NCBI GenBank assembly: GCA_030824515.1 | Contig: JAVBXN010000047.1 | Span: 1 to 64,000 of the forward strand | Reading direction: 5' to 3' | DNA length: 64,000 nt | Source: Pelobacter sp. | GTDB lineage: Bacteria; Desulfobacterota; Desulfuromonadia; Geobacterales; Pseudopelobacteraceae | Shown here: one piece after another, positions 37,448-64,000 of the stretch | How positions within the stretch are numbered: the first letter of the stretch is position 1 | How the letters are laid out: the number at the start of each line of letters is the position of its first letter | Translations under genes and position numbers: made by a program | Notes under the pieces: model-generated | Database searches by the model: none | Seen by the model: the letters and a program-made list of their open reading frames with translations, nothing else | Told to the model about the DNA's origin: nothing

Positions 37448-38381
37448 TGCGTTTTTTTCAGAACTTTACAGCCTTTTCATACATGACCGGAGAATCGTGT
37501 TCCTGACAGGTGATCTCGGCTACAAGCTATTTGACCGGTTAATTGAACATGACTCGTCAAGAGTCATAAACTGCGGAATCCGGGAGGCCGGTATGATCGG
37601 CTATGCTGCCGGGTTGGCAAAGACGGGTCTGCTGCCGTTTGTCTACTCGATCACACCTTTTGTGACGCTACGCTGCCTTGAACAGATCAAGATAGACCTC
37701 TGCTACAACCAAGCAAACGTTGTGATTGTTGGAGTCGGGGGGGGATTTGCATATGGGCCGAATGGGCCGACTCACCACGGAATTGATGATATTGGCGTTT
37801 TGAGTTGTCTGCCGCAGTTGACTATCTGGACTCCGTCTGATCCATATGAGGTACGGCTATGCGTCCAAGCGACGACATCCCTTGAAAGCCCGGCTTATCT
37901 GCGTCTTGGGCGTAACAAAGAGCCTCATATCTTTGACTCGCTGAATGAATCGCCAGATATTTCCCACCCAGCAATGGTCAGAGAAGGAAGTGATGGAGTA
38001 ATCATAACCAGCGGCTTCATTCTTCACGAAGTTCTCAAGGCTGTCGAGTTGCTCAAACAACATAACATACACCCTGCTGTAGTTCGCCTAACAACTCTCA
38101 GACCGTTTCCGGCAGAATACATCCGTCTGATGATCGCCAACAGCAATCAGATCATGACCGTGGAGGAGCACGTTGCAACCGGGGGACTTGGGCAGGAAAC
38201 AGCTCGGATCGTAGCCGAGGCATGCGCTGGCACCCGCTTCAGCATGCTTGCCATAGCTACGGAGTTCCCTGATGCCTGTTATGATAGAGAGTCTCTGCTT
38301 GCCAGATCGGGGCTTGATGCAGATTCGATAGCAGCATCATACTTAAAACTACTAGCCCAAAAACATCGAGGATACGCCTAG
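37440..38381 (+). CDS. Transketolase, C-terminal subunit (split)
   Basis: 313 residues from GTG at 37440. It contains the pyrimidine-binding domain ('INCGIREAGMIGYAAGLA', 'FVTLRCLEQIK', 'GPTHHGIDD') and the C-terminal transketolase domain (about 190-310). The conserved Glu that activates thiamine is in REAG. It pairs with the N-terminal subunit encoded just upstream; the two would form an alpha2beta2 enzyme. Confidence 0.93.
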   Translation: MRDAFFSELYSLFIHDRRIVFLTGDLGYKLFDRLIEHDSSRVINCGIREAGMIGYAAGLAKTGLLPFVYSITPFVTLRCLEQIKIDLCYNQANVVIVGVGGGFAYGPNGPTHHGIDDIGVLSCLPQLTIWTPSDPYEVRLCVQATTSLESPAYLRLGRNKEPHIFDSLNESPDISHPAMVREGSDGVIITSGFILHEVLKAVELLKQHNIHPAVVRLTTLRPFPAEYIRLMIANSNQIMTVEEHVATGGLGQETARIVAEACAGTRFSMLAIATEFPDACYDRESLLARSGLDADSIAASYLKLLAQKHRGYA

Positions 38382-44981: not shown

Positions 44982-45605
44982 TCAATATTTATTTAGTTTA
45001 ATAGATAGCAACTCTTCTTGCCACGGTAAAGGTTTATCCATAAAAGCTATTGCAAATATTTCAGTATCGCCAACTTCAGAATAAACATGCGGAAATCCAC
45101 TTGTCATCAACATTTTTATCAATGTTTTTTCAGTAAAACCTGTTTTATGGGCAAAGAAATCTTTCCCACTACGTTCTATCTGACTCTGAAATCCATAGAT
45201 CACATCAAGAACCCTTATTGGACCACTAGGTGCTGTATAGAGAATATCCTCAATATCCATTCCATTTTCCACAACAGACTTCATGACTTCAAGTAAATCG
45301 GGAACCCTTATGTATGCAAAGCCTCCCCTCTTTAATACAATTCTGAAGCCCTTGACTACTTTAACAACATCATGGGCGTAATAATGTTCAAGATTGTGAG
45401 AACAATAGATCGCATCATATTGACGCGCTGGAAGCTTCCACAATTCACGTGCATCGCACAAGACATCTGGGTTACATAGCGGATCAATATCCAGCAGATC
45501 ATGACGCCATCCCTGAAAACATTTAGGAATTTCAATTGCCTTGTTATTACCACCTACATTAAGCACTGCCCGTGCAGATTCACTTGATTGATGCGATAAT
45601 GTCAT
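44982..45605 (-). CDS. Class I SAM-dependent methyltransferase
   Basis: 207 residues from ATG at 45605, preferred over the GTG at 45617 because GGAG sits 7 bases before it. The N-terminal 'VLNVGG', 'HDLLDIDP', 'YDAIYCSHNLEHY' (post-motif II Glu-His) and 'VLKRGGFAYIRVPD' define a small Methyltransf_11-type domain with a Gly-poor motif I, as is common in O-antigen clusters. The same VGG / HNLEH layout occurs in the C-terminal half of the radical SAM fusion three kb upstream. The target is probably a sugar (inference). Confidence 0.8.
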   Translation of the reverse strand: MTLSHQSSESARAVLNVGGNNKAIEIPKCFQGWRHDLLDIDPLCNPDVLCDARELWKLPARQYDAIYCSHNLEHYYAHDVVKVVKGFRIVLKRGGFAYIRVPDLLEVMKSVVENGMDIEDILYTAPSGPIRVLDVIYGFQSQIERSGKDFFAHKTGFTEKTLIKMLMTSGFPHVYSEVGDTEIFAIAFMDKPLPWQEELLSIKLNKY

Positions 45606-45622
45606 AAATATCTCCACATATT

Positions 45623-47614: not shown

Positions 47615-48867
47615 ATGCTATTGACTGGTTTTGTTGCAACCATATTTAAACTGATATACCGGCCATTAATCACCATGTTACTTGCATCTTTGAAAACATT
47701 GAAAGTTTCAACCCTGCATATATTTTCAAAACCAGTCAGTCTCAATAACTGTTCCAGATATCTTTCGTTGTAGCCTGAATTATGGTAGTCAAAAGGATTT
47801 GAATGGCCACCAAAAATTATTTGGGTAAGAAACTGCCACTGCCCAACAGTTAGGTCAGGGATCAGAAGGAGCTCTGCAAGGCAGTCAAGGTCTGGGACGC
47901 TCACCATCAGCCTGCCACCAGGCTCCAGAACCCGATACCATTCAGCAAGAGCTGTTAATACCTCTTCAGCAAAATCAAGATGCTCAAGAACATGTGATGC
48001 ATAGACCTCAACGAACTCTCCTTCGCCAAAATCAGAGAGGTCAGAAGCCTCGGCAATATGATCAACAATGGGTGAAGGTAATATGTCCAGAATTTCCCAT
48101 TCGCTATTCTTTTCCTGTCCACCAATATGGAGCCTTCTTTGCCTTTTGTCCATAACCCCCTCTTGTGAAGTTGTTGTAATTTTATAACGATTGTGTTTAT
48201 CCAGCAACCTGTGTTCCTCAGCAATTACTTCGGAGTTTAAATTTGCCCAGCAATATTCACATTCTGGTATCTTTCCAAACATCTCTTCAGAGTTGAAATA
48301 ATTTTCTGATAATTTTACTGCCAATGTCAGTGGATCTTTATCTTTATCAATCCTCTTTACTGCATCAAACACACACGGCCCACAAACTGGAAATACCATA
48401 TTTCCATAAATCATTGGTCCAGGACATATGCAGTTACACGGTATTCTTGCAGGAAACTGTTTGTTGGCAAAATGCGTTTTTATAACATAATTGACTTTAC
48501 TATGCTTCAACTCCTTTACTGCTACACTGGGATAATAACTGACATCAATTCTTGTGATGTCATCCATAACGTCTATCGCATTCTGTAATGCAATACCATT
48601 AGTTGTAATAACAATATCATTCACTGCCTTTGATTTTCTCATCAGAGCAATTCCTTCCTTAATGTGCCGCCAAAGTAACGGCTCACCGGGACCATGAAGG
48701 AAAAGGTCAACTGTATAGTTAGACTTTTCTGTAATATTCAGAAAAGATTCTAGATCTTTCATAGATAGATGGTAATTCGGATTATATGCTCTCATTCCCT
48801 TATGGGCGCAGTGAGCACAATCAAGCTGACATTCGGAGCAGACTTCCAAGGGAACACGAATTGGCAT
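47611..48867 (-). CDS. Fusion: radical SAM/SPASM-like enzyme + methyltransferase domain
   Basis: 418 residues; GGAG lies 9 bases before ATG. Residues ~1-215 are radical SAM: CQLDCAHC (CxxxCxxC, ~12-20), 'LHGPGEPLLW', 'ITTNGIAL', then SPASM-like Cys groups CNCICPG, CGPC and CEYCW that could hold auxiliary Fe-S clusters. Residues ~245-415 are a class I methyltransferase-like domain: 'LHIGG', 'ASHVLEHL', 'EPGGRLMVSVPD'. One gene thus couples radical chemistry with a SAM fold. Targets could be a sugar or a peptide. It abuts the GT2-OGT gene with no gap. Confidence 0.83.
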   Translation of the reverse strand: MPIRVPLEVCSECQLDCAHCAHKGMRAYNPNYHLSMKDLESFLNITEKSNYTVDLFLHGPGEPLLWRHIKEGIALMRKSKAVNDIVITTNGIALQNAIDVMDDITRIDVSYYPSVAVKELKHSKVNYVIKTHFANKQFPARIPCNCICPGPMIYGNMVFPVCGPCVFDAVKRIDKDKDPLTLAVKLSENYFNSEEMFGKIPECEYCWANLNSEVIAEEHRLLDKHNRYKITTTSQEGVMDKRQRRLHIGGQEKNSEWEILDILPSPIVDHIAEASDLSDFGEGEFVEVYASHVLEHLDFAEEVLTALAEWYRVLEPGGRLMVSVPDLDCLAELLLIPDLTVGQWQFLTQIIFGGHSNPFDYHNSGYNERYLEQLLRLTGFENICRVETFNVFKDASNMVINGRYISLNMVATKPVNSI

Positions 48868-51318
48868 TTAAATATCTCCATTCCAAATCGTATTCAAGAC
48901 AGCTTCAAATTTTCTTGCATATGATTTTGCTGAACAAAGCACTGAATCTTTCATCTTCATACGCAAACATGAACGTAAATGAGATAATGCGTCCAGTTTG
49001 CTTGCAATAGAAACAGCCTTTTCAAGGTATTCATCAATTGAATTTGCCGTATTGCAACTCAAGCCAACCGCAGCAAGCAGACTCTCCCCTACCCTGCAGG
49101 AATGACGGTCACCAGACAATGTTATGACAGGAACTCCCATCCACAATGCCTCACAAGTGGTAGTGGTTCCATTATAAGGAAAAGTGTCAAGAGCAACATC
49201 TATATTTCCATACTGTGCAAGATGAATTAACATATTTGGATCAGAAGGTTTAATTATTAAACGATCACTAGCAATTCCTTGTTTTTTGAATCGCTTCACC
49301 ATTCTGTCAACAGTTGACGCATCTTGAAAATAATGATTTTTCAATAATAATCTTGAATTCGGAACATTGTTCAAGATTTGACACCATACCTTTATTGTTC
49401 CTTCCTGAATCTTAGGCAACATATTAAACGAACCAAAAGTAATGTATCCGTTCGTCAATGCTGGTAATGCAGAAATTTCCGGTGCATCTTCAGGTGGCTT
49501 GTAACAAAGAAAACAATCTTCAATCCTAACAAGTTGTTCGCTATATAGATTATCAGAAACTCCAGGTGGATCTGCAATTGCATCTGTAATGCGGTAATCC
49601 ATAGAAGTAAGGCCTGTAGTGTTTGGATAACCAAGCCAGGTAACCTGAACCGGCGCCAGTCTTCTAGTGAAAAGTCCGAGCCTGATTGTCTCGCCGGTGT
49701 GGCCTGCCAAATCAATAAGAATATCAGGTGCGACCTCACAAATCACATTTGCCGTTTCATCATCGGTCAATAATGAAATATCCCTCCAGCCATCTACAAG
49801 CGCTAGCGTCTTTTTTGTCATGTCATCAATATTTTTCGTATCGCTAAGGCAGTAGATTTCAAAGATGTTTCTGTCATGATTTTCCAAAAGCGGTAATAAA
49901 AAAAACCCAACAGAATGGCGGCGAAAATCGGGAGAAATGTATGCAATCCGTGTCCTTGATCGTTTCAGACGTACTGGTAAATCCTTATTTTTTATTGAGC
50001 AGTGCTGTTTTTCCCATATTCTGCTTTCTCGATATATAGCTTGTTGGGAACTTGTTTCATTATAGTTCATACATAAAAGCAGATTTGAATGGGCCTTCAT
50101 ATTTGATGGATCAAGTTTCAATGTATTACGATACGTTTTAATAGATGCATCAAGTTTGCCCTGATAAGCCTGAATCGTGCCAAGAGTTGTTAGTACTGAA
50201 GAGTTGTCATATTCAAGCTGAAGTGCTTTATTACAAATTGATTCAGCTTCCTGAAGACTTCCAGAATACATCGTTTTTCTTGCCTGCTCCGACATTGTTA
50301 ATGCTTGATATTTCCGCCATCCAGGAGTTTCAGGAACTGGCAAACAGAACCGACTATTATCACAAGGGGGAGGATACTCAGACATTTGCAGTTGAGCTAA
50401 TCCATCCCAAGGGATTCTTCTAACGCCCTCATACCCCATATATGCCGGAAGACCGTATTTTTGCTTAAAAACAGCCCAATTCTCGTAAACCCGTGCCCAG
50501 CGTCTATCAAGCTTTTTCTGTTTTTCATAATTCGGAAGGTAATCAAAATTAGCTTGGTGTTGATGCCAAGCAAAAGCCCCAATAGCAAGCTTGGGGCGAA
50601 ATCCAGCCTGACGGGCACGCACACCCAGATCATGATCCACAAAGTACCCTAAAAACCTGCGATCCAGATATCCGACTTTTTCAAGCAGTTGGCGTGTAAC
50701 AAGAAATGCATCACCAGTCAGAAATGGATCATCGAACCATTTCCCCCTAAAACTTTTAGATCTGATCCGAGCATAACGGAATAGGTCTATGAAATTATTA
50801 AGTTCACCGCAATCTTTAATATTATGGGTAATAAGGTGGTTATCAACAAAATTTGAACAACCTCTAACCAGACCGGAATCATTAAATAAATCTGCAACAA
50901 GCAGCAATTCGTTTATATAGCTAGGAGAAACAAATATATCATTTGATAAAAAGATAATTCTATTACCTGACGCATGGGAGAGTATTGTATTGAGACTTCC
51001 GCTGTACTCAATATTTTCAGGGAATCTGAAAATTTTTGTATTTTTATGTAAATACGGCACAAGCTCAAATAATTTTCCTGTGTTGTCAGGTGATGCATCA
51101 TCAACAAGAATCAACTCATAATCTCCGGTAACACTTGCCAGAAGAGAACGTAAAGCAATAAGAGTTGTATCTATATTTCCGTATGCAGCCATGCCAATGG
51201 TAATCGAAGAATCCAGTATTGAAGGTGGAAACTTTTTTCCCAGTTCCGGGTCAATAAGTAGCAATTCTGCTGGATCGGTCTTGTCCAGTTCTTCCCAAGT
51301 CATTGACATATTAATCAT
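48868..51318 (-). CDS. Fusion: GT2 glycosyltransferase + TPR + OGT (GT41) domain
   Basis: 816 residues; ATG at 51309 is an equally good start (AAGAG 9 bases upstream). Residues ~35-300 are GT2 of the rhamnosyl/galactosyl type: 'ILVDDASPDNT', 'IFLSNDIFV' and 'GDAFLVTR'. Residues ~345-420 hold 2-3 TPRs. Residues ~455-815 are an OGT/SPINDLY-type GT41 domain: ISPDFRRHSV (catalytic-region His), DLAGHTG, TWLGYPNTTG, FNMLPK (UDP-binding Lys), and DTFPYNGTTTTCEALWMGVPV. It joins a chain-extending GT2 and a protein-modifying OGT in one polypeptide. It is second in the minus-strand run, 13 bp after the giant gene. Confidence 0.9.
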   Translation of the reverse strand: MINMSMTWEELDKTDPAELLLIDPELGKKFPPSILDSSITIGMAAYGNIDTTLIALRSLLASVTGDYELILVDDASPDNTGKLFELVPYLHKNTKIFRFPENIEYSGSLNTILSHASGNRIIFLSNDIFVSPSYINELLLVADLFNDSGLVRGCSNFVDNHLITHNIKDCGELNNFIDLFRYARIRSKSFRGKWFDDPFLTGDAFLVTRQLLEKVGYLDRRFLGYFVDHDLGVRARQAGFRPKLAIGAFAWHQHQANFDYLPNYEKQKKLDRRWARVYENWAVFKQKYGLPAYMGYEGVRRIPWDGLAQLQMSEYPPPCDNSRFCLPVPETPGWRKYQALTMSEQARKTMYSGSLQEAESICNKALQLEYDNSSVLTTLGTIQAYQGKLDASIKTYRNTLKLDPSNMKAHSNLLLCMNYNETSSQQAIYRESRIWEKQHCSIKNKDLPVRLKRSRTRIAYISPDFRRHSVGFFLLPLLENHDRNIFEIYCLSDTKNIDDMTKKTLALVDGWRDISLLTDDETANVICEVAPDILIDLAGHTGETIRLGLFTRRLAPVQVTWLGYPNTTGLTSMDYRITDAIADPPGVSDNLYSEQLVRIEDCFLCYKPPEDAPEISALPALTNGYITFGSFNMLPKIQEGTIKVWCQILNNVPNSRLLLKNHYFQDASTVDRMVKRFKKQGIASDRLIIKPSDPNMLIHLAQYGNIDVALDTFPYNGTTTTCEALWMGVPVITLSGDRHSCRVGESLLAAVGLSCNTANSIDEYLEKAVSIASKLDALSHLRSCLRMKMKDSVLCSAKSYARKFEAVLNTIWNGDI

Positions 51319-51331
51319 CTCTTAATTCAAA

Positions 51332-54300
51332 CTAAGGTTTTAGATTTATAATCCCAGCAAATTTATTGGTGTACCTATGCCAAACATCGCGATAGGCACT
51401 CTCAAGAATATTTGTGAATTTTTCGGCCTCCATAAATGGAGAAGCAGACAACTGCTTCCTGAGATTTAAATGGTAATCAGAAAGACGCTTCATATCATTA
51501 CAGAGTGAAACCGTGATATCCAGATATTCATCCACTGTTTCCGCTAAAAGTTCTTCAAGGCCAAGATGGCATAAGATACTGGCCCCAACGCGTCCTGCGT
51601 GATAATTACCACGCAAAGCAATCACCGGAACCCCCATGTAAAGAGTTTCAAAAGTCGTTGTGGTGCCATTGTAGGGAAACGGATCAAGTGCGATGTCTAT
51701 CTGACGATACAATTCAAGATGATCAGTGTAAGAATCAATTGCCGGAACGCACATAACACGATCCTCTGTAACTCCTCGCCCAACAAAATGCATTTTATAG
51801 TTCTTGGCAAATTCAGAATCGATAAATGACTTGTACTTAAGCAAAAGTCGGGAGTCTGGAACGGCCAGAAGTATACGGCTCCAAAGGTCAATAACTTCAG
51901 GCGATATTTTGGAGATGTTGTTAAAGCAACCGAATGTAACATACCCTTTGATCTGTGACGGTGGAGGACCGGAATCTATAGGATTCTCAGGTGGTTGATA
52001 ACAATGAAAACCATACGGAAAACGAATCAGTTGTTCATGTTCACTAATATCACATGCAAATTCAGGGTCTGCGATTGCATCTGTAATACGATAATCCATT
52101 GTTGGTATACCGGTGGTATTGGGGTAGCCAAGCCACGAAATCTGTATCGGTGCAGCTTTTCTGGCAAACAATGTCAGCCGGTTTCCGGCTGTATGCCCTG
52201 CAAGGTCAACCAATACATCAACTTTATCGTTTGCAATGAGTTCAAGCAGTTCTTGATCTGTAAATTCTGAAGTATTATGCCAAACATCAGCATACGACTC
52301 CAGCATCAAGGTTTGAATATCTGACTTCGTCCTGTCTGAATAGCAGATAACAACAAAATCATCCCGATTATGCAACTGAAGAACCGGCAAGATAAAGTAC
52401 CCTACTGGGTGTCTGCAAAAATCTGGAGACACATAACCGATAATCAGCTTACGATCAGGGAGCGGATCATTTTGGAATGTCCGTTTATGATTATCTGCTG
52501 GAACATGCAGTTCAGCCCATTTTTTTTGTTCGACCGAAATAGCTGAAAGAGTGGAATCATCCAGATACTGAAATGAATATATTAAGCTGCTATGCAAGGC
52601 AGCATTCTGAGGATTTACTTCAAGCGCTCTATGCAAATCCTCCAATGCTTCATGCATCCTCGACTGGGCTGTCATAGCTTTGGCATGTACTGACAAGAGA
52701 TCTGTATTGTCAGGAAAATATCTAAGCCCCTCAGATGCGACTCGTTCCCCATCCGTAACCATGCCCATTTCACAGAAAAGCGTGCTCAGATTGATATATG
52801 CCGGCGCATATTCATAATCATAAAACAATGCTTCCTTAAAATACAGTTCAGCATTATTAATATCCTCAAGCTGATGATACGCCGATCCGATATTGTTAGA
52901 TATTATGGCTGACTCCTGAATATGTTCAGATGCTTGTTCATAGCACTCCAGAGCCTGATATGGGTCTTTCAAAGCCAGCAGAGCATTGCCTTTTTCCAGA
53001 TAGGCCTCTCCATATTCAGAGTTCAGCCTGATAGCAGTCTCAAAACACTCAATGGCTTCATGAAAATTCTTTTCCTTTTCAAATGTCAATCCAAGATTAT
53101 AGTGAGCTTCTGCGAAAGATGAGTCAGCAGAAATTGCCAATTCAAATGCTTTTTTTGCCTCATCAATTTCGCAAGTCTGCATCTTGATAATACCCAGGTT
53201 GTTGTAAGCCATTGCAAAACCTGGATTCAAAGACACTGACTGTTCATAAAGCCTGATAGCTTTATCGATATTTCCAGCTTCCATCTGATCAATACCATCA
53301 TTGTACAGCATGGCTGCTCTAGTATTTGCATCAACTATTTTATTTTCCGCAGCATCATTATAAGATTTTGAGGTGGTTTCTTTTAAATCAGTACGTTCTT
53401 TCACTATTTGAAAATAGAGTTCCTCCAGATTTCTGGTAAATTTTGCGCCGTCACAGAGAGTCGATGCCATCATCCTTGCACGTAATTCAAACCGTATCTT
53501 TTTTAATTCTTCAAATTTGAAAGCAGCCTCTTTAGCTTTGGCAATAAATTGTTCCTGCGAGAATGTTATCCATTCAGGCAAATCAATTGTTCTTAAAAAA
53601 CTGGCTGTCTGACGACCAGCGGGTTTATTTCCCATAAGTGTCAAAATCGGAACCCCCATCCAAAGAGCCTCACAGGATGTCATGCCACCAGAAAACGGGA
53701 ATGGATCAAGAGCAATATCAATATCACCATACTCCTTTAACATATCTGCATGTTGTGACTTTCCACGCAGTTCCAAACGATTAGCATCAACACCACACTT
53801 TACAAATGCTTTTATCAAGCGGTCCCGTTCTTTTTTTCTTTCCAACGAAGACCACTTAATTATTAATCTCGAATCAGGAACTGCCGTCAACACCTTACTC
53901 CACAAGTTAATGACTTCAGGTGTCAGTTTGGCAATGTTGTTGAATGAGCCAAAGGTGATAAATCCATTTTTCAGAACAGGTGGTTCAACTACTGGTGGCG
54001 CATATTCAGGCGGAGAGTAACAGAAACGGCTTCCTGGAAGCCGGATAACCTTCTCTGAAAACCATTGTTCCTCATTCTCCGGTATTGTTGTTACATCGGA
54101 AATCAGATAATCTATTGCATCAACGCCAGTGGTATTGAAATAGCCTAGCCATGATATCTGAACAGGGGCAGGTCTAAGTGCGAACAACCGCAAGCGGTTT
54201 CCTTTTGTATGTCCCGCAAGGTCTACAAGAATATCAATCCGATCATTACAAATAAGCGATGCAGCTGCTTCATCAGATAGTCTGGCAATATCACGCCACT

Positions 54301-57300
54301 CGCTGACATATCCCTGCATTATCTCTGTCAGGTCATCCCGTTCAAGCATCGTCCCATAACAATATACTTCAAAACAATTTCTGTCATACGCAACAAGAAC
54401 AGGAAGAAAATGATAACCAACCGGATGGCGCTTAAAATCTCCTGAAACATAACCAATGCGCAAACGTTTAAGTTGGACATCAGGTTTGAAATCATGCAGG
54501 ATTTGGGCGACATCGGCAGCATGAATATCATTCCATTTAAGGCTTTCTGAATATACTTCTGCCTGAGATACTTTCTGAATATAATTCAGCACAAAGAGCA
54601 GATTTGATCTTGCATCGCAATTATATGGGTTCAGTTTCAAAGACTTTCTAAAACATTTGGCAGCTTCACTACTCCTTCCCCTGTCAAGCATTGTAGTTCC
54701 CAACATCATCCAAGCATCATCCAAATCAGGAATAATGGAAAGCGCCCTTCTGAAACATCGAGCTGACAGTTCAGGGTTACCGCCAGTATCCCTGATTGCT
54801 TTGCCAAGATTTTTCCAGGCTTCCGCATGGTCGGGTGATATTTTAGTTGCTGTTTTGAATTCATCTTTGGCATCCTCCCTGAAACCAATCTCAAAATAAG
54901 CAATTCCAAGATTATTATGGGCATCGGCATTACCTGGATCTGATGCCAGAACCACCTCAAACAATTCTGCTGCTCCAAGAAAATCATTTTGTTGAATACA
55001 TAATAGCCCCTTTGAGAAATCATCGGAAACCAAAGCTGTTTTCTTGTATTTATCTTCAGGAAATTGAATACTTTCATTATGACTATCAAAAATAAGGGGA
55101 GTGTTATAATCCGTTTCGCTCCAACGGTGCCACATCCATCGAAACGCACTCTGCAGATTATTTGTGAATTTTCTACCATCACAAATGGGGGAGTTGATCA
55201 ATCCATGACGTAGTCCAATGCGCAGTAATGAAAGTCTATCCAGATCACTAGCAAGCTTGCATGCTATAGCTATGTACTCCTCCTGCGTTGATGCCACTAA
55301 CTCACCCAATCCAGCGTTCATAAGATGACTTAAAGAATGTCTCGATGAAAACAGTTTGCCAGGCAAAGTGACTACAGGCACCCCCATCCAAAGTGATTCA
55401 AGCGTGGTAAGTCCACCACTATAAGGAAATGTATCTAGCTGTATATCCACTTTACCGTAACTGGCAAGCATCTCATAGTGCGAGGCGGGACCTTCAAAAA
55501 TCAATCTGTCATTAGTGATTCCAAAACGGGAAAACATCCGGGTGTATCGTTTAATCGCATCGCTGTCGGAAAACGACGCGTTTTTGAGAAATAGCCTCGA
55601 GCCGTCTACCAGTTTCAATACTTCAGACCATAAAGCTATCGATTCATCGGATATTTTTGACGGTTTATTAAAACTGCCGAATGTGACATGTCCGTTTTGG
55701 TCCGCAGGTAGAGGACTTACTGCAGGGGAATCTTCAGGAGGCATATAGCTGACATAATCATCCGGCATCCTGATGATAGTTTCTGTCGAAAACTCATCTG
55801 AACCTTCCGGTGACTGGAAACGATCCGAAATAAGATAAGTCATTGTGGAAAGACCTGTGGTCCCCACATATCCGGCCCATGTCACCTGAACCGGTGCCGG
55901 TTTCATGGCAAATACCCTCAATCTATTGCCATTTGTATGACCTGCAAGATCAACCAGAATATTTATATTATCCCTGAATACAATTTCAGAAACCTCTTCA
56001 TCATCAATTTCATGGATATCACGGAAGACGTCGACTGACTCGCAAATACGTTTAGTTATATGGTCTTCAGAAATAACATCTGAATAGCAGAATATCTCAA
56101 AGCTGTTTCTGTCATGCAGCATCATGAAAGATTGAATAAAAAGGCCTACAGGATGTGATCTGAAATCAGGAGAGATAAAACCTATGCGGAGCAAAGAACT
56201 ACCAACGAGTTTTTCTGGAATATGAAAATGCTTCTCTAATCTACCGTGCCTAATATCCCAATTACGGCTTTCTTCAAAAAGTTCATGTATTGTGGTTTGA
56301 TAAATAGAATGCAAAAGAAATAATATATTACTTCGGACCTGATGATAGTTCGGATCTAATTCAAGCGCTTTCCTGAATGCAGCCAGAGAATCATTAAGAT
56401 TGCCCAACTTCATATAAGCGCTTCCAAGGTTATTATAGATTTTCGGACAATCAAATATATTTTCAAGGGCCTTATTACAAATTGCAATCGCCTCTCCAAG
56501 CTTTCCAACAGATAAATATAGGTTTGACAAGCTTATAAATGGTGCGGCAAAATCAGGCGAGGTAGCGATGGCATGATCAAATAAACGTATTGCTTCTTCA
56601 AGATTTCCCGTTTTGTAATACACAAGCCCCATATTGAAATATGCCTCAACATATCCTGGCTTGAGATCCAACGCCTTTATGTAACATTTAATTGCAGAAT
56701 CAAAATCCCCATTATCTGAGTGGATGTTTCCCTGATCATTAAATGTAATGTGATCTCCTGACAATTGTTTTTCCATAATCTTTACAGGCTGTTCAATAGC
56801 ACCGATATCAAGTGCTTCAGATTTTATTACTGCATTGTTTTTTCCCCATATTTTCCTAAAAACCTCCTGTATATTTTTAGTAAAAGTAATTCCATCACAT
56901 AAAGGAGAATCTGCCATTTTTTGGCGAAGAGTTGTTCGCAAAACTGAAAGTCTTTCAAGGTCTCCAGCCAGTTGACAAGCAATTGTAACGTACTCTTCCC
57001 TAGAAGAGGCAACGTATTCATCCAAACCAACATTCATCAGGTGGGAAAGTGAGTGTCGAGAAGAAAACAAATTACCTGACAAGGTTATAACCGGAACTCC
57101 CATCCAAAGAGACTCAAGAGTTGTAAGTCCGCCGCAGTAAGGAAATGTATCCAGTTGGATATCAACATGTGAATATCGGTCCAATATTTCTGCAGGCGAA
57201 CTCTGTCCTTCAGTTATTATTAATTCAGCAGAAATACCGCGAGATTTGAAAAACTCCAGATAACGTTTCACAGTAAATGGATCATCAAAAGATGGATTTT

Positions 57301-60300
57301 TGATGAAGAGGCGAGACCCTTCAACCGCATTCAGAATCTCTACCCACACGCAGAGAACCTCAGTTGACACCTTAGCCAAATTATTAAATACACCGAATGT
57401 TACATAACCGTTTGATAAAGCGGGTAACGATGAAACTTCATGAGCATATTGCGGCGGACAGTAGCTTATGTAATCATCAGGCATACGGATTATTTGCTCG
57501 CTGGAATATTCTTCTGCATCTGGTGGTGACTGAAAACGATCAGAAATAAGGTAATCAATTGCCGATAAACCGGTTGTTCCAGCGTAACCGGCCCAAGTCA
57601 CCTGAATTGGAGCCGGTTTCATTGCAAAAACCCTAAGTCTATTACCTACGGTATGCCCCGCCAAATCGACTAAAATGTCTATGTGATCTTCCCGTATAAC
57701 TTCATTTAATACATAATCATCAGTATCAATGACAGTTTTCCAACTATCTGATGCATTACGCAGTGTATGTGTAAAATCATCCTCGTAAACCGCATCAGAG
57801 TAACAGATAATTTCAAATTCATCACGATTATGAAACTCAAAAAACGACTGAATAAAATATGCCACGGGATGACGACGAAAATCTGGAGAGACAAAACCTA
57901 TTCTAATTATTTTATCTTGTGAATATCGGCAATTACCTCTACTCCAAAGATTGCTGAAGCATTCCGCATGCAACGAGTTCCAATTCAGGCTCATTTGAAA
58001 AATATCTTCTGGAGTTGTATCTGGTAAATAATGCATAAGCATAATTAAACTGGAATGAGCTTTATGCAATGCCGGATCAAATTTTATAGCTGTTTTGTAT
58101 ACTTCAACAGCCTCATGTATTTGGCCTGATTTTTCCAACGCACAGCCAAGATTTACATAACCAAGAGCAAAATCAGGCTTCAATTTAACAGCACGATCAG
58201 AATGTGTTATAGCTTTCTTTATATGCTTCAACTCAGTGTAGAGATGACCAAGATTGGTTTGTAGTTCAGCACAATCCGGCTCTATCTTGCAGGCATTAAG
58301 ATAAAATATTTCAGCAGTTTTAAAATCTCTTTTGCTTAATGCAAGATTACCTAGCGCTAACAACACACCTGCATTATCAGGCGACAACTGTCTTGCACGG
58401 TGCAATAGCTTTTCCGCTTGATCGAATTGCCTGGCATCAATCTGAAGCTGCCCAAGGTTGAAGATGGCATCGAAATATTCGGGAGCGGCCGCAACAAGCC
58501 TTTGATATGCATTGATCGCTTTTTCGCGTTCTCCTGCCTTGGAAAGTATCATAGCCATCAAAAACAGGGAATTCTGGTCATCCGGTTTCAGACATAAGAT
58601 TCTACGATAACAGTCGGATGCCTCCAGATAACATTTCTGCTCATTCAGCATCTTTCCCAGGTTTTGTAATGCTTCGATATAATCAGGTTTGAGTACTAGG
58701 GCGTTACGCACCAACTCGATCCCATTTTCAATATTTCCTATACGGTAACGAACTACCCCAAGAGCATGAAGTGCCCGAGGATAACCATTAAAATCTGCCA
58801 GAAGAGCTTCATAACAAGCTTCTGCCTCTTTAAGTTTTCCCAACACAACAAGTTGTGCAGCTTCATTGCAACGACTTTCAAGCTCAAACTCATCTTCGTA
58901 TAAAGCAACTATTGTCGGTGTCCGTATATTGGTTTGCAGGAACTTTGCTTGGTTCGCGTGATTGTATTTTTGCCAGACTGTGCGAAACATATCTTCAAAA
59001 GAATCTGCAAACCGGGCGGCATCACAAAGCACTGAGGAAACAAGCAATTCTCTTAAATCAGCATGATATGTAGAAAGCCGCTGAATGTCTCTACTAAGAG
59101 CAATAGTTATCGACAAATAATCTTCAAGCGTCTCAGCAATGAGCTCAGCCAGCCCAAGATTGTTGAGAATACTGGCACCCACCCTGCCAGCATGACAGTT
59201 GCCCCGTAATGAAATTACAGGCACCCCCATAAACAAAGCTTCAAAGGTTGTTGTGGTTCCGTTGTAAGGAAAAGTATCAAGAGCAATATCAATTTCGTTG
59301 TAGGTTGCAAGATGGTCATTAAAAGACACTTTGGTTGGAATGCATATAATCCGGTCAGAGGTAACACCTTTTGATCCAAAGCATGCTGAAAAGTTGGCGG
59401 CGAAAACAGGGTCACGGAATGATTGCGACTTCAGCAACAATCGTGAATTTGGAACTGCCATGAGTATAGCGATCCAGCAGTTAATAATCTCAGATGTAAT
59501 TTTAGGTAGTTGATTCAAGCATCCGAAAGTAATAAATCTGTTACGTATAATTGGCGGTGGAGTAAAATCCGGCGGATCAATTGGAGGCTGATAACAGAGA
59601 AAACAATTTGATAAACGGATCAATTGTTCAGAATAATTTGCTTCACTAGCCCCCTCTGGATCTGCAACAGCATCCGTAATTCGATAGTCCATTGCTGATA
59701 TGCCAGTCGTATTGGGATAACCAAGCCAGGTCATCTGTACCGGAGCCGGCCGCATCGAAAAGAGAATAAGTCGATTGCCTGCTGTGTGGCCAGAAAGGTC
59801 AACCAGAATGTCAATTGCATCATCATGTATCATACTCCAGGCAGCCCTGTCAGACAGACCTTCAATTATCCGCCAGCTGTCAACCTGTGAGACGATTTGT
59901 TCTGTAACTTCATCAGACCAGTTACTATTACTGTAACAAATCAGCTCATATTGATTGTGATCATAGTTAGTGAAAAATGGAATGCAGAAAAAGCCTACCG
60001 GATGTTTTCTAAAATCCGCTGATACAAAACCGATCCTCACTTTTCCTGTATCTTTGAAATTAGTTGCTTTGCTGTAAAGCGGCTGAAATTGTCGTCTGGC
60101 ATGTAAATCAGACCAGCGCTGTGATTCCTTCAAGACGTCGTCATGGTTATACTCTGGTAGATACTGCATGTTCATCAGAATATTGCTATGGATTTCTGAA
60201 AAGCATGGATCAGAGGCCAGTGCCTTCCTGAAACAATCTATTGCTTCCCTTACCCGTCCTGTTTCCTTGTAAACACCACCCAGATTCGTTAATGCGACAG

Positions 60301-62530
60301 GATAATTTGTGGTTAATTCAATTGCCCTGGAAATATAACGAATTGCCGATTCCGAATCAGCCAGCCAATGACAAACGACCCCCATTCCATGAAGCGCCCT
60401 TGGATTATCAGACTGATCCGACAGTATGTCCTCATATATACTTCGCGACTGCTCATATTCACCTCGTGTGAAATGCTTTTGGGCCTTAAGAAATTGACCA
60501 TCAAGGTGGGGCGGAGATACAGGGTGCGCATGACTGTAAGCTTGCCAGGCAGTACGAAAGACTTCTTCAATAGAATCTGAAAAACGAGCGGAATCACAGA
60601 GAGCAGAAGAAACAAGCAGATTCCTAAGTTCTAGATGGTATGTTGAAAGACGTTTGACGTCAGAACTAAGAGAAACAGATAAAGCCAGATAATCATCAAC
60701 TGTCTCCGCGATCAGTTCAGTCGCCCCCAGATTCGTTAGAATGCTGGATCCCACCTTTGCAGCGTGACGATTACCCCTTAACGTAATAACAGGTACGCCC
60801 ATAAAAAGGGCCTCAAAGGTTGTGGTTGTTCCGTTGTAAGGGAAGGGGTCCAGAGCAATATCTATTTGGTTGTAGGTTGCAAGATGCTCAAAGAAGGATT
60901 CTTTTGCCGGAACACACATAATACGCTCTGTTGGTATTCCGTGAGCTTCAAATTGCACAGTAAAGTTTTTGGCAAGAACAGGATCACAGAATGATTGCGA
61001 TTTCAACAACAGTCGGGAACAGGGCACCGACATAAGTATATTGCTCCAAATGGCTATGACCTCTGGCGTGATCTTGGCAGGGTAATTAAAACATCCAAAG
61101 GTAACAAATCCATTGATAAGTAATGGCGTTGACGCAACGTCAGGAGGATTCTTTGGCGGCTGATAGCATAGAAAACAATCCGGAAGCCGAATCAGCCGTT
61201 CAGAGTGTTGTTCATCGCTAAACCCTTCAGGATCGGCAACAGCGTCAGTAATTCTATAGTCCATCGCTGATATGCCAGTGGTATTCGGATAGCCGAGCCA
61301 GGTCATTTGTATCGGGGCGGCTCGATGAGCAAATATTCCCAAGCGGTTATCTGCCGTATGCCCGGACAGGTCAATTAGAATATCGATCCGGTCATCACGT
61401 ATTCTTGCTATCGCCTCTTCATCCGAAAACGAGCGGATATCATGCCAGTAATCAGCATATCCTTTTAATTGCTCCGTTACATTGTCTGACGTTAGTACAT
61501 TTGAGTAACAGTGGATTTCAAAACGGTTATGATTATGAGCTGCTAATAGCGGTTCAAAGAAAAAGGCGACAACATGCTTTCTGAAATCAGGGGAAACGTA
61601 GCCTATCCGTAGTTTCCCAGGCCGACGGTAAGGAGTTTCAAACGGGATGGTCTTTAGTGTAAAACTTTTTTCCCATAAACGACTTTGGTTAAGAATTTCA
61701 TCCTGAGAAAAGTGCGCAGAAAAATTCATGGCATACAACAGGTTTGAAAAAGCACTTTGACCTCCGCCAACTTTTAACGCAGACTTATACCAATCTACGG
61801 CTTCATGTGCTTTTCCAGAAGCTCTTGTGAGCACTGCCATCACCAGCATACTGTCAGCAGATGATGGCAACAGTTTAAGAGCTTTTTGAGCATATTCCTC
61901 TGCTGCTACATAATTCGAACCAATCTCATAACACATCGAGAGGCCTAAGAAAGCCTCTCCACAATCAGCCTGTACAGCTAAAGCGCTGCGGAATGCGTTA
62001 ACAGCTTCTTCAATACGAAAAAGCATCCTTAGGGCTTTTCCCAATGCCACATAAATCCTTGCATCCGGTGAATATTCGATTGCTTTCTGATAGAAAGAAA
62101 CAGCCTCTTCAAACTTTTGCTTTTGGCAGCAGAGATTTCCAAGCCCCAGACAGACAACAGAAGAATCAGGATTTAACGCCATGGCTTTCTGGTAGCACTC
62201 CTCAGCTTCGACAAAGCGTCCCAGTTCACTCAGCATTTTTCTTAAATTGAATAATGCATCAAGATAATCCGGTTTAAGTTGAATTGCTTGCTGCACCAAC
62301 CTGACTGCCTTTTCCGAATCTTTGCCGCTTCTGTACATGACAACCCCAAGTCCATGTAGAGCACGGGGGTTTTCGGGAATTCGCGAGAGGATATCACGAT
62401 AAATGGCTTCAGCCTGAATAAAATCACCTGTATTCACGCACAAAGAAGCATCCTGAAATTTTTTATCAGCAGATATTTCATTATAATAAAAAAGTTTTTT
62501 AGTCATATCGTTATTTTTTTGGCTTAACAC
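51332..62530 (-). CDS. Giant hexamodular TPR-OGT (GT41) protein glycosyltransferase
   Basis: 3,732 residues in one uninterrupted frame with no signal peptide, so cytosolic. Six modules repeat the order TPR array then OGT/SPINDLY domain. OGT domains begin near residues 306, 833, 1544, 2114, 2689 and 3357. Each has a DF..H motif (catalytic-region His), D(L)SGHT/DLAGHT, a 'FN...K' motif with the Lys that binds UDP in human OGT, and a D.FP(Y/F).GG/GTTT acceptor-nucleotide motif. Modules 1, 2 and 6 share WLGYPNTTG and YNGTTTTFE. Modules 3 and 4 share WAGY.GTTG and GGLTTLES. Module 5 differs (WLGYFNTTG, FSGGMTSCE). TPR number varies from ~3-4 (module 2) to ~9 (module 3). The start is GTG at 62530, or ATG at 62506; neither has a clear Shine-Dalgarno. 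No inactivated module is apparent. Donor and acceptor are unknown. The adjacent pilin genes suggest pilins or their export partners (inference). Confidence 0.95.
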   Translation of the reverse strand: MLSQKNNDMTKKLFYYNEISADKKFQDASLCVNTGDFIQAEAIYRDILSRIPENPRALHGLGVVMYRSGKDSEKAVRLVQQAIQLKPDYLDALFNLRKMLSELGRFVEAEECYQKAMALNPDSSVVCLGLGNLCCQKQKFEEAVSFYQKAIEYSPDARIYVALGKALRMLFRIEEAVNAFRSALAVQADCGEAFLGLSMCYEIGSNYVAAEEYAQKALKLLPSSADSMLVMAVLTRASGKAHEAVDWYKSALKVGGGQSAFSNLLYAMNFSAHFSQDEILNQSRLWEKSFTLKTIPFETPYRRPGKLRIGYVSPDFRKHVVAFFFEPLLAAHNHNRFEIHCYSNVLTSDNVTEQLKGYADYWHDIRSFSDEEAIARIRDDRIDILIDLSGHTADNRLGIFAHRAAPIQMTWLGYPNTTGISAMDYRITDAVADPEGFSDEQHSERLIRLPDCFLCYQPPKNPPDVASTPLLINGFVTFGCFNYPAKITPEVIAIWSNILMSVPCSRLLLKSQSFCDPVLAKNFTVQFEAHGIPTERIMCVPAKESFFEHLATYNQIDIALDPFPYNGTTTTFEALFMGVPVITLRGNRHAAKVGSSILTNLGATELIAETVDDYLALSVSLSSDVKRLSTYHLELRNLLVSSALCDSARFSDSIEEVFRTAWQAYSHAHPVSPPHLDGQFLKAQKHFTRGEYEQSRSIYEDILSDQSDNPRALHGMGVVCHWLADSESAIRYISRAIELTTNYPVALTNLGGVYKETGRVREAIDCFRKALASDPCFSEIHSNILMNMQYLPEYNHDDVLKESQRWSDLHARRQFQPLYSKATNFKDTGKVRIGFVSADFRKHPVGFFCIPFFTNYDHNQYELICYSNSNWSDEVTEQIVSQVDSWRIIEGLSDRAAWSMIHDDAIDILVDLSGHTAGNRLILFSMRPAPVQMTWLGYPNTTGISAMDYRITDAVADPEGASEANYSEQLIRLSNCFLCYQPPIDPPDFTPPPIIRNRFITFGCLNQLPKITSEIINCWIAILMAVPNSRLLLKSQSFRDPVFAANFSACFGSKGVTSDRIICIPTKVSFNDHLATYNEIDIALDTFPYNGTTTTFEALFMGVPVISLRGNCHAGRVGASILNNLGLAELIAETLEDYLSITIALSRDIQRLSTYHADLRELLVSSVLCDAARFADSFEDMFRTVWQKYNHANQAKFLQTNIRTPTIVALYEDEFELESRCNEAAQLVVLGKLKEAEACYEALLADFNGYPRALHALGVVRYRIGNIENGIELVRNALVLKPDYIEALQNLGKMLNEQKCYLEASDCYRRILCLKPDDQNSLFLMAMILSKAGEREKAINAYQRLVAAAPEYFDAIFNLGQLQIDARQFDQAEKLLHRARQLSPDNAGVLLALGNLALSKRDFKTAEIFYLNACKIEPDCAELQTNLGHLYTELKHIKKAITHSDRAVKLKPDFALGYVNLGCALEKSGQIHEAVEVYKTAIKFDPALHKAHSSLIMLMHYLPDTTPEDIFQMSLNWNSLHAECFSNLWSRGNCRYSQDKIIRIGFVSPDFRRHPVAYFIQSFFEFHNRDEFEIICYSDAVYEDDFTHTLRNASDSWKTVIDTDDYVLNEVIREDHIDILVDLAGHTVGNRLRVFAMKPAPIQVTWAGYAGTTGLSAIDYLISDRFQSPPDAEEYSSEQIIRMPDDYISYCPPQYAHEVSSLPALSNGYVTFGVFNNLAKVSTEVLCVWVEILNAVEGSRLFIKNPSFDDPFTVKRYLEFFKSRGISAELIITEGQSSPAEILDRYSHVDIQLDTFPYCGGLTTLESLWMGVPVITLSGNLFSSRHSLSHLMNVGLDEYVASSREEYVTIACQLAGDLERLSVLRTTLRQKMADSPLCDGITFTKNIQEVFRKIWGKNNAVIKSEALDIGAIEQPVKIMEKQLSGDHITFNDQGNIHSDNGDFDSAIKCYIKALDLKPGYVEAYFNMGLVYYKTGNLEEAIRLFDHAIATSPDFAAPFISLSNLYLSVGKLGEAIAICNKALENIFDCPKIYNNLGSAYMKLGNLNDSLAAFRKALELDPNYHQVRSNILFLLHSIYQTTIHELFEESRNWDIRHGRLEKHFHIPEKLVGSSLLRIGFISPDFRSHPVGLFIQSFMMLHDRNSFEIFCYSDVISEDHITKRICESVDVFRDIHEIDDEEVSEIVFRDNINILVDLAGHTNGNRLRVFAMKPAPVQVTWAGYVGTTGLSTMTYLISDRFQSPEGSDEFSTETIIRMPDDYVSYMPPEDSPAVSPLPADQNGHVTFGSFNKPSKISDESIALWSEVLKLVDGSRLFLKNASFSDSDAIKRYTRMFSRFGITNDRLIFEGPASHYEMLASYGKVDIQLDTFPYSGGLTTLESLWMGVPVVTLPGKLFSSRHSLSHLMNAGLGELVASTQEEYIAIACKLASDLDRLSLLRIGLRHGLINSPICDGRKFTNNLQSAFRWMWHRWSETDYNTPLIFDSHNESIQFPEDKYKKTALVSDDFSKGLLCIQQNDFLGAAELFEVVLASDPGNADAHNNLGIAYFEIGFREDAKDEFKTATKISPDHAEAWKNLGKAIRDTGGNPELSARCFRRALSIIPDLDDAWMMLGTTMLDRGRSSEAAKCFRKSLKLNPYNCDARSNLLFVLNYIQKVSQAEVYSESLKWNDIHAADVAQILHDFKPDVQLKRLRIGYVSGDFKRHPVGYHFLPVLVAYDRNCFEVYCYGTMLERDDLTEIMQGYVSEWRDIARLSDEAAASLICNDRIDILVDLAGHTKGNRLRLFALRPAPVQISWLGYFNTTGVDAIDYLISDVTTIPENEEQWFSEKVIRLPGSRFCYSPPEYAPPVVEPPVLKNGFITFGSFNNIAKLTPEVINLWSKVLTAVPDSRLIIKWSSLERKKERDRLIKAFVKCGVDANRLELRGKSQHADMLKEYGDIDIALDPFPFSGGMTSCEALWMGVPILTLMGNKPAGRQTASFLRTIDLPEWITFSQEQFIAKAKEAAFKFEELKKIRFELRARMMASTLCDGAKFTRNLEELYFQIVKERTDLKETTSKSYNDAAENKIVDANTRAAMLYNDGIDQMEAGNIDKAIRLYEQSVSLNPGFAMAYNNLGIIKMQTCEIDEAKKAFELAISADSSFAEAHYNLGLTFEKEKNFHEAIECFETAIRLNSEYGEAYLEKGNALLALKDPYQALECYEQASEHIQESAIISNNIGSAYHQLEDINNAELYFKEALFYDYEYAPAYINLSTLFCEMGMVTDGERVASEGLRYFPDNTDLLSVHAKAMTAQSRMHEALEDLHRALEVNPQNAALHSSLIYSFQYLDDSTLSAISVEQKKWAELHVPADNHKRTFQNDPLPDRKLIIGYVSPDFCRHPVGYFILPVLQLHNRDDFVVICYSDRTKSDIQTLMLESYADVWHNTSEFTDQELLELIANDKVDVLVDLAGHTAGNRLTLFARKAAPIQISWLGYPNTTGIPTMDYRITDAIADPEFACDISEHEQLIRFPYGFHCYQPPENPIDSGPPPSQIKGYVTFGCFNNISKISPEVIDLWSRILLAVPDSRLLLKYKSFIDSEFAKNYKMHFVGRGVTEDRVMCVPAIDSYTDHLELYRQIDIALDPFPYNGTTTTFETLYMGVPVIALRGNYHAGRVGASILCHLGLEELLAETVDEYLDITVSLCNDMKRLSDYHLNLRKQLSASPFMEAEKFTNILESAYRDVWHRYTNKFAGIINLKP
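51332..62530 (-). repeat. Six-fold intragenic module repeat (TPR + OGT)
   Basis: Approximate extents of the OGT halves: 61625-60535, 60045-58960, 57915-56840, 56195-55115, 54480-53390 and 52465-51350. The TPR arrays lie just before each (higher coordinates). The same plus-strand phrase, around a reversed 'FPYNGTTTT' codon block, recurs near 60830, 59260 and 51675. Diverged versions occur near 57140, 55420 and 53690. Repeats are similar at protein level but clearly diverged in DNA, so they are old duplications rather than an assembly artefact. Confidence 0.85.
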
Positions 62531-62563: not shown

Positions 62564-62592
62564 AAAAAAAAAGCCTGACAGATGTCAGGCTT
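62564..62592 (-). terminator. Rho-independent terminator between spc and the giant OGT gene
   Basis: On the minus strand, AAGCCTGAC/GTCAGGCTT (62571-62592, 9-bp stem, 4-nt loop) is followed by nine or more T. It ends the pilin transcript, so the OGT gene needs read-through or its own promoter in the short gap that follows. Confidence 0.85.
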
Positions 62593-62619: not shown

Positions 62620-62934
62620 TTAGAGGGAAGTCCATCCGGAATAATCAACAGTTGCATTAGCAGGTGTAGTAGCAGCTGCACCGATAGCTGCAGCAGACCA
62701 GTACATTTTTGGATCAGTATTGTTAGTACCCATCTGGCGGTCACCAGACGAGTGTTTTGATTGAGCCGAATAATTTGTAGAAGTTGAAGTGACACCAATA
62801 TTCACTTTATTTGAGGGGGAAAATGTACCACCACCAATAACTGTCGTACCAGTAATACTGGTGCTGGCATAGGCCGAACCTGCAGCCATCATCAGAGCGG
62901 CAACAAAACATATTTTTATTAAAGTCTTATTCAT
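62620..62934 (-). CDS. spc: PilA-C/Spc-like small exported pilin partner
   Basis: 104 residues from ATG at 62934, chosen for AGGAG nine bases upstream. Residues 1-23 are a signal peptide (ending SAYA). The remainder is Thr/Ser-rich, with 'FSPSNKVNIG', 'SKHSSGDRQ' and 'TDPKMYW', patterns like the C-terminal domain of full-length Geobacterales pilins and the short pilin chaperone Spc of Geobacter sulfurreducens, which stabilises PilA. It follows pilA directly (39-bp gap) and precedes a terminator. Its Ser/Thr-rich face would also suit O-glycosylation (inference). Confidence 0.75.
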   Translation of the reverse strand: MNKTLIKICFVAALMMAAGSAYASTSITGTTVIGGGTFSPSNKVNIGVTSTSTNYSAQSKHSSGDRQMGTNNTDPKMYWSAAAIGAAATTPANATVDYSGWTSL

Positions 62935-62972: not shown

Positions 62973-63185
62973 CTAGAGTGTCGGATAGATCTGATTATCA
63001 GCAAAAGATGATTCCATCTGGGTCTTGAAGTTGCGAAGATCCGAAGTTCCTGCCGAGTTAAAACCTTTGATGCGGTATGCCGAGAACTGAGGAATAGCAA
63101 CAGCAGCCAGGATGCCGATAATCGCAACAACGATCAGCAACTCAATCAAAGTAAAACCTTTTCTGTTTCTGATTTTGTTAAGCAT
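62973..63185 (-). CDS. pilA: Type IV pilin, short PilA-N type (conductive-pilin-like)
   Basis: 70 residues from ATG at 63185 (AGGAG 6 bases upstream). The prepilin peptidase site is KG|FTLIE; the mature protein is 60 residues starting with Phe and has Glu5. It is nearly the same as the Geobacter sulfurreducens short pilin in the helix. Aromatics at mature positions 1, 24, 27, 32, 43, 51 and 57 are kept (Phe at 32 instead of Tyr). It lacks the large C-terminal globular domain of ordinary pilins, whose role falls to the separate spc product. A sigma-54 promoter match is at 63250-63265. Confidence 0.93.
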   Translation of the reverse strand: MLNKIRNRKGFTLIELLIVVAIIGILAAVAIPQFSAYRIKGFNSAGTSDLRNFKTQMESSFADNQIYPTL

Positions 63186-63380: not shown

Positions 63381-63593
63381 TCAAAAGACAGGATATGATT
63401 GCTGTTCGGCAAAAGCAGCTTCCATCTGGGATTTGAAGTTTCTTAAATCCGAGTTCGCTGCTGAGTTATAGCCTCGTAATGTATAGTCGCGAAAAATCGG
63501 GATGCTAACTGAGGCCAATATACCTATTATAGCCACCACAATCAACAATTCTATCAAAGTAAAGCCGGCAACTTTATTTCGGACTGTTTTCAT
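63381..63593 (-). CDS. pilA: Second type IV pilin, short PilA-N type (paralogue)
   Basis: 70 residues from ATG at 63593 (GGAGG 6 bases upstream). The cleavage site is AG|FTLIE and the mature length is 60. Differences from the other copy include Ser18 and Ser20 in the helix, Ile23, 'RDYTLRGY' after Pro22, and a C-terminus ending YPVF. Aromatics at 1, 24, 27, 32, 43, 51, 57 plus a terminal Phe60 are present. It is the gene nearest pilR and has its own sigma-54 promoter match. Whether both are made together or under different conditions is unknown. Confidence 0.93.
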   Translation of the reverse strand: MKTVRNKVAGFTLIELLIVVAIIGILASVSIPIFRDYTLRGYNSAANSDLRNFKSQMEAAFAEQQSYPVF

Positions 63594-63676: not shown

Positions 63677-64000
63677 TCATTCCTCACCAGCATCCAGCCC
63701 AAACTTTGCCAACCGGTACCTGAATGAGCGGAACGACATGCCCAGCAACTCCCCGGCCTTTTTCTTGGCGCCGCCGGTTTTTTCCAGCGCCTTGAGAAGA
63801 TATTTTTTCTCCAGCCCCTCCAGCAGCGGCTCAAGCAGCATGCCCTCTTCCGGAATATCAATATCAGAGGTGAGACAGGCCGTTTTAGCGACCAGCATCT
63901 GTTTTGGAAGATTGTTTTCCGAAATCAGCTGCGGATCAAGAATCAGACTGCGTTCAATGCAGTTTTCAAGTTCTCGGATATTGCCCGGAAATTGATAATT
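63677..64000 (-). CDS. pilR: PilR-like sigma-54 response regulator (C-terminal part only)
   Basis: 107 residues of the C-terminus are inside the window; the gene continues past the right edge. The sequence begins with the end of the AAA+ domain (QFPGNIRELENCIERS, the family's 'PGN.REL.N' motif). A linker follows, then a Fis-type helix-turn-helix (KKKAGELLGMSFRSFRYRLAKFGL). It activates sigma-54 RNA polymerase. Location directly upstream of pilA identifies it as PilR with good probability; the receiver domain is not visible here. Confidence 0.88.
   Translation of the reverse strand, partial: NYQFPGNIRELENCIERSLILDPQLISENNLPKQMLVAKTACLTSDIDIPEEGMLLEPLLEGLEKKYLLKALEKTGGAKKKAGELLGMSFRSFRYRLAKFGLDAGEE

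Follow-up and report, generated by a model that had tools for sequence, protein, structure and literature searches.

Arrays of two to six SPINDLY-type glycosyltransferase modules beside pilus genes of Geobacterales suggest a multi-sugar protein-decorating machine

SPINDLY (SPY), the plant protein O-fucosyltransferase of family GT41, carries TPRs and a GT-B domain, as do the units of the bacterial array described here, but it has one catalytic domain where the array has six. Human OGT, XcOGT and T. terrenum OGT share with the array the family, the fold, the catalytic-region His and the pyrophosphate Lys. They differ from it by their lower sequence scores, and the base-reading position is Leu in human OGT and Lys in the array. 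The GT41 enzymes known to us act on protein acceptors. A bacterial point of comparison is FlmG of Caulobacter, a cytoplasmic O-glycosyltransferase whose TPR half binds the flagellin acceptors (PMC7591256). FlmG is like the array in its modular TPR and GT build and, on our reading of the array, in its place in the cytoplasm and its action on a subunit of a surface filament, and unlike it in having a single GT module, flagellin as acceptor and pseudaminic acid as donor.

In the Geobacter PilA-N/PilA-C (geopilin) locus, pilR lies upstream of a short pilin, and the gene of an exported partner comes next. The same arrangement, with a partner of 104 aa, is found in the window, i.e., the whole 64,000-nucleotide stretch of Pelobacter sp. 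DNA analyzed here (contig JAVBXN010000047.1 of assembly GCA_030824515.1). The pilin of this locus is central to a dispute over Geobacter filaments. O-mannosylation of PilA-C was reportedly described by Gu et al. in 2021; we give this no weight as evidence. We know of no description of GT41 arrays at a geopilin locus, and the main text of one comparative paper on these pilins has no words in glycosyl-, O-GlcNAc or TPR.

Next to these pilin genes, a single frame on the minus strand (51332-62530) encodes a protein of 3732 aa, identified from the frame, Pfam and a profile as a SPINDLY-type array of six TPR-GT41 modules. A first-pass annotation had seen six repeats of a TPR array and a GT41 domain in this frame, and the searches bear this out. 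PF13844 matches the protein with 1104 bits in 12 stretches, six N-lobes and six C-lobes, all over the curated cut-off, and a profile built from its own six domains finds six full-length GT41 copies of about 360 aa each. The start codon is GTG, with an ATG eight codons in as an alternative. The catalytic domains occupy residues 305-666 (60533-61618), 829-1190 (58961-60046), 1540-1899 (56834-57913), 2112-2471 (55118-56197), 2688-3047 (53390-54469) and 3360-3721 (51368-52453), all on the minus strand. There are at least 26 TPR matches, distributed as 6, 2, 6, 3, 3 and 6 by linker, and none inside the catalytic stretches. None of the 6/6 modules lacks the catalytic-region His or the pyrophosphate Lys, as had been claimed. 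Core identity is 61% between modules 1 and 2, 55% for the pairs 3-4 and 1-6, 51% for 2-6 and 40-43% for the other pairs. Modules 1 and 5, the two submitted to NCBIfam, match no family there over its cut-off. An AlphaFold model of residues 1-1190, comprising two modules, has a pLDDT of 86 and a pTM of 0.53; given the latter value, we drew nothing from how the two catalytic domains are placed with respect to each other.

To which donor class do these modules belong? Taken with their TPRs, modules 1 to 6 score respectively 450, 431, 423, 420, 353 and 421 bits against SPINDLY, 289, 265, 349, 376, 274 and 289 against full-length human OGT, 307, 324, 311, 308, 310 and 298 against T. terrenum OGT, and 149, 158, 149, 143, 155 and 132 against XcOGT. 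These bits count TPR matches too, and an engineered TPR protein tops module 4 (444 bits). Of the GT41 enzymes with solved structures, SPINDLY thus scores highest with every one of the six modules, and its margin over human OGT, about 43-167 bits, is smallest in modules 4 and 3. Foldseek on the two-module model also places SPINDLY first (E about 1e-45, and about 1e-32 for human OGT), but the tightest fit to the model is that of the smaller T. terrenum OGT (TM 0.92 of target, 2.3 A), so that the fold alone cannot choose between SPINDLY and OGT. According to the SPY paper, SPINDLY is set apart from OGT (L866, R904, C917) by K689, A731 and Y744, its pyrophosphate Lys holds GDP-fucose, and mixed residue patterns define an intermediate group (PMC10027727). 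In the array, the equivalents of K665, K689 (the guanosine-reading Lys, which is Leu in human OGT) and E752 are found in all six modules. Modules 1, 2 and 6, which we call A type, also keep H728, Y744, T747 and T748, and thus share the Tyr/Thr/Thr/Glu/His pocket of SPINDLY. Modules 3, 4 and 5 differ, having lost H728 and T747/T748: modules 3 and 4 (B type) have Gly/Leu at 747/748, and module 5 (C type) has Gly/Met there and Phe at 744, a position that is Tyr in the other five. The sugar pockets of the array are hence of three types. At 731, modules 1 to 6 have T, T, R, S, E and L, i.e., the Ala of SPY in none and the Arg of OGT in module 3 alone. The six modules do not carry the OGT/SEC-like signature, having Leu at 689 in none, Cys at 744 in none and Arg at 731 in one.

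The sequence scores and the guanosine-reading Lys thus point to SPINDLY-type enzymes using GDP-sugars. The first-pass annotation had named the array an OGT with a UDP-binding Lys; this Lys is not specific to UDP, its equivalent in SPINDLY holding GDP-fucose, and a UDP-GlcNAc enzyme is not favored, since SPINDLY scores higher and the guanosine-reading Lys is present in every module. The OGT/UDP reading is probably wrong. Judging from the residues, each module probably takes a GDP-activated sugar, and the A-type modules most likely use GDP-fucose or a near relative; modules 3/4 and 5 would, as part of the same reading, probably use other sugars or other acceptors. Of the two GDP-fucose genes, the window genome has a full-score gmd and, adjacent to it, an fcl-like gene whose 469 bits fall just short of the curated cut-off of 500. 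Among the 12 genomes with arrays beside pilin or spc genes (see below), gmd is over the cut-off in nine and is a contig-end fragment in G084 and G139; fcl has a match at E<=1e-60 in ten and is over its cut-off in none. The twelfth genome for gmd, G022, has an array but neither a gmd over the cut-off nor an fcl match at E<=1e-60. The literature drawn on, in addition to the two papers already cited, comprised PMC5174107, PMC11046646, PMC6201914, PMC9207759 and PMC7801869.

A gene of this length might result from separate genes or collapsed repeats wrongly joined, and the genome is a 62-contig draft. However, the modules are merely 40-61% alike in their cores and hence too divergent for assembly collapse. 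Moreover, the separately named MAG Geobacteraceae bacterium GWC2_55_20 has a homologue with the same six modules that is 89% identical (MGZK01000023.1, locus L012, 3091-14382), with an uneven third-position divergence along the gene, and a relative with five modules is encoded on a 209 kb contig from a different genus. In L012, pilR, a pilin and spc precede the array and the downstream genes and their order are the same as in the window; no counterpart of the window's first pilin was recognized there. A scan of genome contigs, from which near records may be missing, gave one relative. In a codon comparison of the window with GWC2_55_20, the dN/dS of catalytic domains 1 to 6 is 0.175, 0.190, 0.284, 0.155, 0.155 and 0.204. 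Purifying selection acts on each of the six domains separately. On the grounds of module divergence, the homologue in GWC2_55_20, selection and the five-module relative, we rejected an assembly artefact, to which we leave a negligible chance. The synonymous divergence between the two genes is very uneven: dS is 0.05 in the third TPR array and domain 3 but reaches 0.99 in the linker that precedes domain 5 and 0.76 in domain 5 itself, and third positions differ by 2-8% per 100-codon bin over residues 1001-2400 and by 43-58% over residues 2601-2900. Domain 5 is far more diverged than its neighbors, and its dN/dS is still 0.155. This is the pattern of a mosaic, and suggests an exchange of module 5.

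The first-pass annotation had also taken one catalytic domain per chain as the rule for such proteins. To our knowledge this is true of the characterized GT41 enzymes, but 89 of the 119 other homologues listed have at least two complete modules, and up to eight. These counts concern 120 listed proteins of 147 found, leaving out the window's own (P0002); ordinary-size single-module enzymes are absent from them because the search took proteins of 0.55-1.75x the query length. Among the 119, one protein has eight full GT41 regions, two have seven, three six, eleven five, nineteen four, thirty three, twenty-three two and thirty one. Six-module chains are thus rare but not unique among the listed homologues (6/119 have six to eight modules), and within this size-limited listing multi-module GT41 proteins are a sizeable class. 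The chains of P0005, P0009 and P0015 (4684-5702 aa, seven or eight full GT41 regions) exceed that of the window. In the open-license PMC literature we found no paper describing multi-GT41 chains.

We built a maximum-likelihood tree of 76 modules, with long-branch warnings on three rows. In the five- and six-module proteins, modules group by position across proteins about 50% identical. Module 1 of the window clusters with module 1 of P0004, P0006, P0008, P0011 and P0014 (97/91), module 3 with module 3 of P0004, P0007, P0008 and P0014 (98/80), and module 5 with module 4 of P0004, P0006, P0007, P0008 and P0011 (100/96). Module 2 derives from module 1 by copying (99/99), and its slot holds another conserved type of module in six relatives (100/100). 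Module 6 clusters with the last module of P0010 (100/98), apart from those that end P0004, P0006 and P0007, position 3 of P0006 and P0011 holds a different module, and the two- and three-module arrays of pilin loci depart from the positional grouping. As common descent alone preserves order, the order of the modules reveals stable, distinct modules with duplications and exchanges, not sequential action.

Before the array, on the same minus strand, are the C-terminal end of pilR (63677-64000; the remainder lies beyond the window, in L009), a second short pilin (63381-63593), a short pilin matching geopilin domain 1 in the PDB (62973-63185; 3.5e-34) and spc (62620-62934), encoding a PilA-C-like exported protein of 104 aa with a weak match to geopilin domain 2 in the PDB (E 0.005 and 0.075). 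Spc has a Sec-type signal, as read from its sequence, and the pilin is a membrane prepilin. An intrinsic terminator-like hairpin with a 9-bp stem and a T run (62571-62592, minus strand) separates spc from the array; co-transcription is thus not required, and we discarded co-transcription of the array with pilA-spc. Past the array, the minus strand encodes a GT2-TPR-GT41 fusion of 816 aa whose A-type module is the seventh GT41 module of the locus (48868-51318), a radical SAM and methyltransferase protein of 418 aa (47611-48867), TPR663, a GT-C-fold membrane glycosyltransferase with C-terminal TPRs (45623-47614), a methyltransferase of 211 aa (44982-45617) and a PMT_2 GT-C glycosyltransferase of 555 aa (43314-44981). 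They are followed on the plus strand by a fusion of an epimerase and a GT2 domain, the latter similar to PgfS/ArnC at scores below the cut-offs (40388-42352), and by a split transketolase pair (36626-38381), two genes possibly providing sugar precursors. The conserved far end is an ABC transporter with genes of 303, 297 and 264 aa (33710-36302, minus strand). In a comparison of 15 related loci, 12-13 had homologues of it (51-86%), including the pilin-side array loci of eight relatives. The GC content is 0.40 over 43314-62530 and 0.51-0.58 in pilR, in the genes beyond it and on the far side of the window; arrays have a lower GC content than the measured flank in 8/8 relatives. The locus resembles an island whose ends are constant while its cargo varies.

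TPR663 has the TMTC-like motifs DD, YRP, RxD, KE, PxxP and ERxxY, that is, by eye (alignment A2), six of the seven TMTC motifs, with SHKSYRP present as YRP alone and DW, the seventh, only as a nearly invariant Asp. Its N-terminal part has the GT-C fold (VIA-align), and Foldseek matched just the TPR half well. It resembles the TMTC protein O-mannosyltransferases in its fold, in these six motifs and in its C-terminal TPRs, and differs from them in being bacterial. From these features, TPR663 is likely a bacterial protein O-mannosyltransferase tied to the geopilin locus. The latter would then be linked to an island of several glycosylation enzymes, a TMTC-like one from bacteria among them. We surveyed 20 genomes picked by this partner and not by the array, with matches over 300 bits. 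A GT41 gene is found at the TPR663 locus in 14 of them, in two cases across contig breaks, and is missing in five (G011, G019, G024, G025 and G027, the last being the weakest case since its contig ends soon past TPR663); G135 cannot be judged. The array is hence an optional addition to a pilR-pilA-spc-TPR663-ABC core, and, TPR663 being present, the locus has a likely pilin-modifying enzyme even without it.

To study the distribution of arrays, we used loci chosen for long frames or several GT41 matches, a selection that left many GT41 matches unmapped. In the fetched loci, 16 Geobacterales genomes have a frame with at least two full GT41 modules. The array adjoins a pilin and/or spc-like gene in 12 of these, which belong to six genera and two families, so that the location beside pilin genes reported by the first-pass annotation recurs well outside the window. 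These 12 arrays have six modules (the window and GWC2_55_20), five (G084), three (G125 and G022) or two (G008, G001, G099, G104, G118, G117 and G139). We saw no spc in G117, and a spc but no pilin in G001, G022 and G118. The TMTC-like GT-C gene is present in all 12. For two further arrays, in G018 and G112, the contigs are too short to decide, their expected neighbors being on other contigs, and the last two, in G083 and G054, are in flagellar loci. G083 encodes a flagellin that has 58% identity to one from the window genome; G054 shares another gene of the flagellin neighborhood of the window genome, not the flagellin. The pockets were tabulated in selected loci, among which L052 (G018) was called a pilin locus from its companion contig. 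At least one non-A module is present in the arrays of all ten relatives' pilin loci (L041, L046, L052, L053 and L092-L097), as in the window. In eight flagellar loci, 13 of 16 regular modules have the A pocket and Lys at 689, and the other three have Arg at 689 and Gln at 728; the divergent L042_3, L102_16 and L103_13, neither A type nor with Lys at 689, were set aside from these 16. Flagellin as the main acceptor of the array is weakened because flagellin genes sit near other GT41 genes in eight relatives' loci and near a weak GT41 match in the window genome. The latter has two flagellin-domain genes: for C12:66000, this match, which is distinct from the array and has a single module, is about 7 kb away, and the contig of the other, C46, has no GT41 match.

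What might such an array do? We tentatively favor, with a little less than an even chance, a soluble cytoplasmic multi-donor protein O-glycosyltransferase of the geopilin locus, acting on Spc or the pilin before export. Six SPINDLY-type GT-B modules, each with its own TPRs, would work on one soluble cytoplasmic chain. The TPRs would probably hold the acceptor, for which the PilA-C-like exported protein Spc and the short pilin of the locus are the likeliest candidates, and several GDP-derived sugars would be added to it before export, much as FlmG does to flagellin. TPR663 and the PMT_2 enzyme would add a further sugar on the periplasmic side. The earlier suggestion of a multi-site or multi-sugar protein glycosyltransferase is indeed the most natural reading of six complete and constrained modules. 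Several observations stand against our reading. Besides the lack of GDP-fucose gene matches in G022, the absence of Ala at 731, the tight fit of T. terrenum OGT and the presence of TPR663 as another likely pilin modifier, three concern the locus. As Spc is of Sec type and the pilin a membrane prepilin, a cytoplasmic enzyme would need to act before export; the hairpin lies between spc and the array; and some TPR663 loci have no array. The last two would fit an enzyme of the same type that modifies other cytoplasmic or surface acceptors, the adjacency to pilins reflecting a shared island and not a shared substrate. The array is absent from 5 of the 19 evaluable loci with a pilin-linked TPR663, and the low GC of the island is that of mobile cargo. 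Yet the adjacency to pilin or spc genes recurs across genera and families, and the flagellin-domain genes of the window genome have either a weak, different GT41 match nearby or none on the contig. We consider such other acceptors unlikely, while taking them seriously.

The modules could also be fused isoenzymes, all doing essentially the same job, in which case fusion would only make the enzyme locally more concentrated or let more sites be modified each time the acceptor binds, and the pocket differences would be drift. The close pairs 1/2 and 3/4, the A type of module 6 and a module number varying from one to eight among listed relatives are in agreement with this; nevertheless, proteins that are about 50% identical have the same pocket types at the same positions and each module is separately constrained, which makes fused isoenzymes fairly improbable. 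At the other extreme, the distinct pockets and the largely conserved order of modules can be compared with NRPS/PKS-like logic, and a true glycan assembly line would have module order and pocket type encode the order of sugars on a protein of the pilin locus. The duplication of module 1 into position 2 and the exchange of module 5 would then rewrite the glycan, as polyketide module swaps do. We regard this as quite improbable. Finally, the modules might build up a glycan, either lipid-linked or soluble, for transfer to the pilin by the GT-C enzymes or for export by the ABC transporter. In favor of this, the locus has two GT-C enzymes, the epimerase with its domain resembling a polyprenyl-phosphate sugar transferase, methyltransferases and the transporter, but known GT41 enzymes use protein acceptors and TPR arrays suit protein binding, and we hold glycan building to be very improbable.

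Whichever the acceptor, the Geobacterales provide a natural series of one, two, three, five and six modules within one bacterial order, with up to eight elsewhere. This series lets one ask whether the choice of donor and site in SPINDLY and OGT lies in the module, in the TPRs or in the chain. Elsewhere in the window, we observed genes for a 1087-aa protein with a transglutaminase-like core (7559-10822) and for a Fic/DOC family protein with a Fic_N domain (11548-12714).
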